Source: an uncultured bacterium
GTDB taxonomy: Bacteria; Cyanobacteriota; Vampirovibrionia; Gastranaerophilales; Gastranaerophilaceae
Length of the DNA: 34,402 nucleotides
Reading direction: 5' to 3'
Assembly (NCBI GenBank): GCA_949286885.1
Contig: CASEEG010000059.1
Location: 1 to 34,402, forward strand
The notes under the pieces are model-generated. The model saw only the letters and a list, made by a program, of their open reading frames with translations, was not told the DNA's origin and ran no database searches. The first letter of the stretch is position 1. Every line of letters starts with the position of its first letter. The position numbers and the translations under genes are program-made. Shown piece after piece: positions 14,626 to 28,883 of this stretch.

Positions 14626-14654
14626 TTGACGTGAATTTTTGTTCTTGCTATATT
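14626..14654 (+). promoter_or_regulatory. Promoter for tRNA-Lys
   Basis: TTGACG, a 17-bp spacer and TATATT preceded by TGC (extended -10) make a near-consensus sigma-70-type promoter. Transcription would begin near 14661 and run about 140 bases through a tRNA-derived leader before reaching the mature tRNA-Lys. Confidence 0.65.
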
Positions 14655-14694
14655 GAATTAGCAGTGAGGAATTAACTTTCTCGTGTTGAAATTT

Positions 14695-14773
14695 AAATTT
14701 GCGTCTGTAGCTCAATAAACGAGCGTAGCGAGGTTAGCGGCGAAGTCCGCACAAACTACCTGCTGAGCTATAG
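14695..14773 (+). repeat. tRNA-Lys-derived fragment: direct 5' end plus inverted D-arm
   Basis: Bases 14695-14714 are an exact 20-bp copy of the sequence spanning the 5' end of tRNA-Lys (14796-14815). After 41 unrelated bases, 14756-14773 is the reverse complement of the tRNA D-arm region 14806-14823, with 17 of 18 matching. The two halves can pair with each other into a long hairpin (CTGTAGCTCA with TGAGCTATAG). The spacer carries its own small GCGG/CCGC hairpin (14737-14750). It is not a functional tRNA. Confidence 0.8.
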
Positions 14774-14801
14774 ATATGACAATTAAATAAGTCTAAAATT
14801 T

Positions 14802-14874
14802 GCGTCTGTAGCTCAGCAGGTAGAGCACTCCCCTTTTAAGGGATAGGTCATGCGTTCGAATCGCATCAGACGCA
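14802..14874 (+). tRNA. tRNA-Lys (anticodon TTT)
   Basis: A full cloverleaf folds. The acceptor is GCGTCTG with CAGACGC and the D-arm is GCTC with GAGC. The anticodon stem is CTCCC/GGGAT, with its bottom C-T pair mismatched, and the loop is CTTTTAA, giving anticodon TTT at 14835-14837. The T-arm is ATGCG/CGCAT with loop TTCGAAT, and the discriminator is A. CCA is not encoded. The acceptor stem is extended outside the mature ends by a further AAATTT/AAATTT pairing, giving a 13-bp perfect inverted repeat, and a T-run follows. Confidence 0.95.
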
Positions 14875-15002
14875 AATTTTTTATATCAAATAATATTAAT
14901 TTTGCGATTCGAACCTATTGCGATACCGCATTTGCAAGCAAGCTTACAAAGTCGCATCAGACGCAAATTTTTTATATCAAATAATATTAATTTTGCGATT
15001 CG
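14861..15002 (+). repeat. 51-bp direct repeat (two exact copies) derived from the tRNA-Lys 3' end
   Basis: Bases 14861-14911 and 14952-15002 are identical over 51 bp. Each copy holds the last 13 bases of tRNA-Lys plus the T-rich downstream region. The first copy runs into an inverted piece of the T-arm (14904-14914 is the exact complement of 14854-14864). Thirty-seven bases with partial dyad symmetry separate that piece from the second copy. The arrangement mirrors the fragment on the 5' side of the tRNA. Confidence 0.85.
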
Positions 15003-28617: not shown

Positions 28618-28716
28618 TTATTGATTATATATTTTTTTTTGATAATATTGTTAGTAAATTGTTTGTCTAATTGTATTAATTTTGTTAATACGCGGTTTTT
28701 GATAATTTAATATTCT

Positions 28717-28790
28717 CGGGACGTAGCGCAGCTTGGTAGCGCACCTCGCTTGGGACGAGGGGGTCGCAGGTTCAAATCCTGTCGTCCCGA
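28717..28790 (+). tRNA. tRNA-Pro (anticodon TGG)
   Basis: The cloverleaf is acceptor CGGGACG/CGTCCCG, D-arm GCGC/GCGC, anticodon stem CCTCG/CGAGG with loop CTTGGGA (anticodon TGG at 28751-28753), and T-arm GCAGG/CCTGT with TTCAAAT. The C1-G72 pair and A73 suit proline. CCA is not encoded. A second proline tRNA begins 19 bases downstream. Confidence 0.95.
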
Positions 28791-28809
28791 TTTTTGCTTT
28801 AGTCAATTA

Positions 28810-28883
28810 CGGGATGTAGCGCAGCTTGGTAGCGCACCGTGTTCGGGTCGCGGGGGTCGCAAGTTCGAATCTTGTCATCCCGA
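28810..28883 (+). tRNA. tRNA-Pro (anticodon CGG)
   Basis: Acceptor CGGGATG/CATCCCG, D-arm GCGC/GCGC, anticodon stem CCGTG/CGCGG with loop TTCGGGT (anticodon CGG at 28844-28846), T-arm GCAAG/CTTGT with TTCGAAT, discriminator A. CCA is not encoded. It shares its first 35 bases almost exactly with the tRNA-Pro(TGG) just upstream, so the pair probably arose by duplication and is transcribed together. Confidence 0.94.

Follow-up and report, generated by a model that had tools for sequence, protein, structure and literature searches.

The tRNA-Lys (UUU) gene in a 34,402-bp stretch of DNA from an uncultured member of the Gastranaerophilales (contig CASEEG010000059.1 of assembly GCA_949286885.1; the whole stretch is called the window below) is flanked by partial copies of its own two ends, and comparable units are found at many other tRNA genes of the same genome and its relatives. 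In each unit, the tRNA gene's own end is copied in truncated form, from outside inward up to the first arm (the D-arm on the 5' side, the T-arm on the 3' side), after which the copy reverses as the reverse complement and rejoins the flank, and the intact tRNA gene follows. The units are specific to the local tRNA, mirror-symmetrical between the two gene ends, arranged in tandem arrays, and present or absent between species; a hairpin insert, termed F3, is shared among loci and is oriented according to the gene end. The tRNA-Lys feature is probably one such 'snap-back' unit, produced at the DNA level by fold-back template switching, recombination between tandem copies and the spread of short hairpins. 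Contig C59, which makes up the window, belongs to a metagenome-assembled genome (MAG) of 1.58 Mb, here G000, which is 89% complete and 5.7% contaminated.

The intact tRNA-Lys gene occupies positions 14802-14874 of the forward strand (ARAGORN; Rfam tRNA, 70.4 bits). The direct copy of its 5' end (AAATTTGCGTCTGTAGCTCA, forward strand, 14695-14714) is identical to 14796-14815 at all 20 positions, as a sequence-only reading of the window had stated, and spans leader position -5 to about position +15, that is, the 5' strands of the acceptor stem and D-stem. The 41-base spacer noted in that reading was also confirmed (14715-14755); it forms the interior of the unit and contains a hairpin, GCGG-CGAAGT-CCGC, at 14737-14750. 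The inverted copy of the D-arm that follows on the reverse strand (CTACCTGCTGAGCTATAGA) is real, but the earlier figure of 17 of 18 positions is replaced by 18 of 19, over 14756-14774, complementary to 14805-14823. When flanks in G000 were paired with the tRNA of a different isoacceptor, a direct copy and an inverted arm occurred together in 0.3% of trials, and the two copies at tRNA-Lys therefore exceed chance. A likely sigma-70 promoter (TTGACG and TATATT, 17 nt apart) was read at 14626-14654 on the forward strand, 5' of the unit; given this promoter-like sequence, the unit should be transcribed within the pre-tRNA leader. Two boxA-like leader copies are also present on this strand, the outer and older one (TTGAAATTTAAAT) at 14686-14698 and the inner one (TGACAATTAAATA) at 14777-14789; the motif accompanies unit-bearing leaders.

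The 5' unit occurs once in G000. At least nine further genomes of the genus carry orthologues beside tRNA-Lys, among them G007 with two tandem copies; the unit is not present in G001 and G009. The interior is identical to that of G014 at 41 of 41 positions, with 80% identity over the 200 bp upstream. Among orthologous interiors, changes are found mainly in loops while stems are conserved, and one compensatory change was seen in the hairpin stem (GTGG/CCAC in G007). A scan of GTDB for the tRNA-Lys pattern returned 12 stretches, seven of which are from genomes of the window's genus; the other five, with no tRNA nearby, were discarded as chance matches. Matches in phage records were short and confined to the tRNA itself. 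The proposal that the spacer is a dispersed repeat did not hold, its single copy in G000 having orthologues only at tRNA-Lys, and the same orthologues rule out an assembly error for this unit and dispose of a purely local accident.

A matching unit on the 3' side, absent from the sequence-only reading, mirrors the upstream one and consists of an inverted T-arm, hairpin-like sequence and a copy of the tRNA 3' end. The tRNA 3' end and its flank (14861-14911) are repeated at 14952-15002 on the forward strand (51/51), the second copy forming the end of the unit and comprising the 3' strands of the T-stem and acceptor stem followed by flank. Between the two copies, the unit starts with the inverted T-arm on the reverse strand (14903-14914; 12/12 complementary to 14854-14865), and its forward-strand interior (14919-14950) contains TGCG-ATAC-CGCA at 14919-14930, which reads TGCA-AGAC-TGCA in G011, and a weaker hairpin at 14931-14950. 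Folding of the window's copy by itself is not significant (z -0.14). The 3' unit is tandem in G009 and G011. In G007 and G014, a sequence resembling tRNA-Lys but without the 5' strand of the acceptor stem was observed 3' of tRNA-Lys (loci L040 and L041), with a large branched hairpin insert ahead of the anticodon arm; the stems show compensatory differences between the two genomes (GTC/GAC vs GGC/GCC).

The arrangement recurs beside other tRNA genes, which the sequence-only reading had named as a check. In a strict 5' test, in which a direct copy and an inverted arm were both required within 400 bp upstream of a tRNA, 9 of 30 tRNAs passed in G000, 12 of 22 in G014 and 6 of 22 in G002, compared with 0 of 67 in four genomes of other genera and 0-0.9% when the flank was paired with another isoacceptor's tRNA. 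The closely read genomes are all MAGs, tRNA loci were sampled partially in several of them, and tRNA flanks of other genera were read directly in these four genomes; kinship between genomes is as given by the tool used. In G000, units match the local tRNA at Val, Phe, Ala, Arg, Asn, Ile, Met, Leu, His, Trp and others, and they are frequently tandem. Mirror-image 3' units were identified at Pro, Glu, His, Val, Lys, Trp and Arg, several of them (Pro, Glu) located past an intrinsic-terminator-like hairpin. Of the 72 candidate units gathered, one turned out to be merely a neighbouring tRNA. The same arrangement at other tRNAs and its conservation in relatives bear out the view that a simple tandem duplication does not account for the feature and that it is a palindromic structure linked to tRNA ends, replication-generated and/or mobile. 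In the window itself, adjacent tRNA-Pro (UGG) and tRNA-Pro (CGG) genes (28716-28883) have no units, and the Pro tRNAs of sister species do.

When 12 unit interiors were searched in G000, all strong matches fell either within tRNA arrays or at the contig ends that extend them. All 15 genomes of the genus contain unit interiors, as do eight further genera of the family, and none was found in the sampled genomes of other families; as far as seen, the snap-back repeat system is limited to the window's family of gut bacteria (Gastranaerophilales). At least 12 of the 39 tRNA genes in G000 lie within ~300 bp of a contig end (about 2 expected), the practical cost being that unit arrays break assemblies. 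A boxA-like motif, TTGAAAATTRAATA, lies closely 5' of many tRNAs in G000, G014 and G002 (e.g. 14777-14789 of the window); 17 of 20 leaders with the motif also have a unit, and in unit-free genomes it is seldom seen. The tRNA-His arrays (L226, L228 and L084) and tRNA-Phe arrays (L230 and L132) contain two unit types whose order differs between species, resembling a cassette array. Among the Rfam 15 covariance models, only that for tRNA passed on the loci scanned, weak matches to others falling far under gathering scores. A self-cleaving ribozyme in the unit interiors was also considered and was dropped, as no common core was seen by eye.

The breakpoints fall within the arms. Direct copies on the 5' side stop between tRNA positions 8 and 20, for the most part at 12-19, which places their ends in the D-arm, and extend to the left into the leader by a variable 0 to 80 bp, and copies on the 3' side begin at about position 60, in the 3' strand of the T-stem. 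Short hairpins are found within the unit arm or at the turn. The units are ~90-120 bp in size, with no room for genes. The direct repeats range from 8 to 99 bp (median 22) and are thus unlike a fixed target duplication generated by a transposase; a conventional miniature inverted-repeat transposable element was rejected on the same grounds. The tRNA-Arg (CCU) locus provides an empty and a filled site: there is no 5' unit in G000 and there are two in G014, each of which re-supplies ~24 bp of leader and tRNA start, and the tRNA remains intact. Judged from the sequences, this anatomy and the in-arm breakpoints fit the products of template switching.

F3 is a 44-bp conserved hairpin insert (CTCTGCCGAGNAAAANNTGACTNAATGTCANNTTTTNNGAGAGG) that is shared by different tRNAs in different genera, a transfer-messenger RNA (tmRNA) gene and dispersed palindromes. 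It was found in leaders of Met, Val and Ala tRNAs (G000), Leu (G023), Lys (G029) and initiator Met (G025), where it is closed mostly by the arms of the local tRNA, and at the 3' end of a tmRNA-like gene recognised by eye (L264). F3 is present in 51 of 146 family genomes in one sample and, in a phylum-wide sample, in 63 of 170 family genomes vs 0 of 216 others; the control search with the reversed pattern gave 0. Upstream of tRNAs it is in sense orientation in 21 of 21 cases. Of 13 downstream cases, 10 are antisense; two of the others are part of a neighbouring Pro gene's 5' array, and the remaining one lies at Ser. The Ser case aside, F3 thus reads from outside the tRNA gene inward, and the strand it favours depends on which end of the tRNA gene it flanks rather than on transcription. 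In G000, a second copy each of tRNA-Val (GAC) and tRNA-Ala (GGC), both with F3 units, is located on contig C115 (L073), which is possibly a contaminating contig from a relative.

Of the 20 F3 copies in G129, most lie away from tRNAs, in dispersed palindromes that include repeats resembling repetitive extragenic palindromic (REP) sequences (GTCATTCTGAGC...GAAGAATC), and one chimera is joined at F3. A dispersed palindromic family of ~150 bp was also observed in this genome (L284-L299; GCGAATTTGC...GCAAATTC); its members mostly bear F3 and are nested in another repeat, some copies of which are without the insert. The F3 stem shows strong covariation, with 50 double-change cells vs 16.4 in shuffles (reached in 0 of 500), a score of 0.260 vs 0.068 in shuffles, and failure of slid controls. 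In the four most variable pairs, only 2 of 89 paired cells are G-U, in line with pairing in DNA. Being conserved and strand-specific, with a strand that is independent of transcription, and present also away from RNA genes, F3 points to DNA.

A DNA-level origin of the units could proceed as follows. DNA synthesis meeting a D- or T-arm hairpin would undergo a fold-back template switch, leave a snap-back copy and return to the flank; recombination between the direct repeats would then add and remove units; and F3-like inserts would be short, non-autonomous DNA hairpins spreading into palindrome loops, either by some enzyme or by template switching where short homologies exist. Hairpin stems are known to be both created and mended by template switching (PMC8794818), and covariation alone is therefore no proof of RNA function. 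In DNA that is highly transcribed, RNA-DNA hybrids are reported to promote such switching (PMC3820800). The data can be explained without a role of the units in tRNA expression. Several points weigh against this explanation. No enzyme was identified as mobiliser of the inserts, and template switching alone fails to explain one insert common to several loci and genera. The 5' units lie between promoter and tRNA, where they may act at the RNA level. The Lys unit differs from F3, and a like origin of its interior would have to be supposed. Finally, the greater conservation of the Lys interior relative to its flanks in the comparison with G014 suggests constraint or repeated homogenisation.

As a tentative alternative, the units may represent a new class of miniature DNA elements that spread by capturing the ends of tRNA and tmRNA genes. 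A folded strand would insert into the first arm from either end and the displaced end would be re-supplied, with the tRNA surviving and each tRNA gene acquiring a custom repeat array.

It is rather unlikely that the units are an RNA-level device, in which a leader hairpin in the pre-tRNA, with the inverted D-arm pairing with either the upstream copy or the tRNA, tunes or insulates folding and processing. The position of the 5' units in the leader downstream of a promoter would suit such a device, as would the stem-keeping, loop-varying Lys orthologues and the association with the boxA-like motif. Predicted folding gives -26.5 (z -2.4) for the Lys leader hairpin alone and ~20 bp of possible pairing between the inverted D-arm and tRNA-Lys (-47.7 kcal/mol, z -6.5). 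Moreover, 14 of 38 mismatches in the inverted arms retain G-U pairing, although by our estimate this is no clear excess over transitions alone. As a general explanation, however, the device is disfavoured because mirror-image 3' units exist, several past terminator-like hairpins, because F3 is antisense downstream of tRNAs, and because sister species differ in the presence of units at the same tRNA; F3 also occurs in tRNA-free palindromes.

Membership of the REP family is improbable, although the sequence-only reading was reminded of REP/MITE-like elements. In such a scheme, the units would be REP sequences or their hairpin-forming doublets (REPINs) mobilised by a REP-associated tyrosine transposase (RAYT) of the Y1 type, in agreement with their short imperfect palindromes and with the presence of F3 within the REP-like repeats of G129. 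Y1_Tnp is nevertheless absent from G000 and from 14 of the 15 genomes of the genus in total, and it does not track F3 in the family (5 of 12 F3-rich vs 3 of 6 F3-free genomes). Only one of ten Y1-gene loci has an adjacent F3, which belongs to a tRNA-Phe array, and no constant GTAG-type tag precedes F3. RAYT was rejected as mobiliser on this distribution and these neighbourhoods.

Scars of phages or integrative and conjugative elements are more improbable still. The att sites of tyrosine recombinases typically involve direct repeats of the tRNA 3' end, tRNA arms are natural sites for these enzymes, and the window's tRNA-Lys has such a repeat on its 3' side. Both gene ends are affected, however, arms are inverted, many isoacceptors are involved in one genome, and neither F3, searched in strict or relaxed form, nor the Pro 3' interior was found in viral contigs. 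An integrase att element was rejected given the size of the units, which leaves no room for genes, and their occurrence at both ends. One local event at tRNA-Lys, a template switch or slippage of no wider meaning, has very little left in its favour: the Lys unit is unique in G000 and a double switch would explain the direct-inverted-direct order, but the sharing of the unit with at least nine other genomes and the many other tRNAs affected refute it as a complete explanation. An assembly or binning artefact is the least credible of all, since despite the many contigs that end in unit arrays, the incompleteness and contamination of G000 and the possibly foreign C115, independent MAGs hold divergent, covarying units that differ in tandem copies and order, and relatives also assembled as MAGs lack them.

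To our knowledge, private arrays of truncated, inverted self-copies at a large share of the tRNA genes have not been described from any bacterial lineage. A literature search whose coverage left out most subscription journals gave no account of such repeats in Gastranaerophilales, and this kind of repeat, with snapped-back tRNA ends, is apparently undescribed. If made at the DNA level, the units are a natural record of the failure of synthesis at tRNA arms and of the way in which compensatory changes come about with no selection acting on RNA. Should F3 be mobile, it would be an element of 44 bp that takes its strand orientation from the hairpin it targets.

Among known systems, the nearest precedent is formed by the distal repeats of Escherichia coli tyrT, associated with RtT RNA, which are tandem units of ~178 bp 3' of a tRNA gene, each containing the tRNA 3' end. 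They resemble the 3' units in these respects but occur at one locus and on the 3' side only, whereas the present units occur on both sides of genes for many isoacceptors and include inverted arms and hairpin inserts common to several loci; RtT had no Rfam match on the loci scanned. REP sequences, REPINs and bacterial interspersed mosaic elements are short imperfect palindromes, strand-specific and possibly miniature mobile DNA (PMC3733652, PMC3116915, PMC2817692), features shared by the units and F3. Here, in contrast, a Y1 transposase is not consistently present and a GTAG/CGTC tag is lacking, the bases ahead of F3 varying by eye (GTGGC-A, GATGGCC-A, TAAGG-A, TTTGC-A and TGAGC-T); the arms are built from the local tRNA, and the units of G000 lie at tRNA genes only. 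As to the many dispersed extragenic copies of REP sequences, the tRNA-Lys interior numbers one copy in G000, and F3 numbers 20 in G129, mostly away from tRNAs. Insertion sequences (ISs) are known to insert into REP palindromes (PMC1525189), and F3 likewise resides inside REP-like palindromes but, unlike an IS, is 44 bp long and gene-free. Sponge mitochondria contain repetitive hairpin elements that are reported to have invaded compact genomes several times (PMC2800124); these are similarly hairpin-forming but organellar, and are not known to include local tRNA ends. Template-switch (quasipalindrome) mutation places reverse-complement copies next to the original and mends hairpin arms (PMC8794818, PMC7202029); it is known from sporadic small events, whereas the units described here recur at tRNA ends, share inserts and form tandem arrays.
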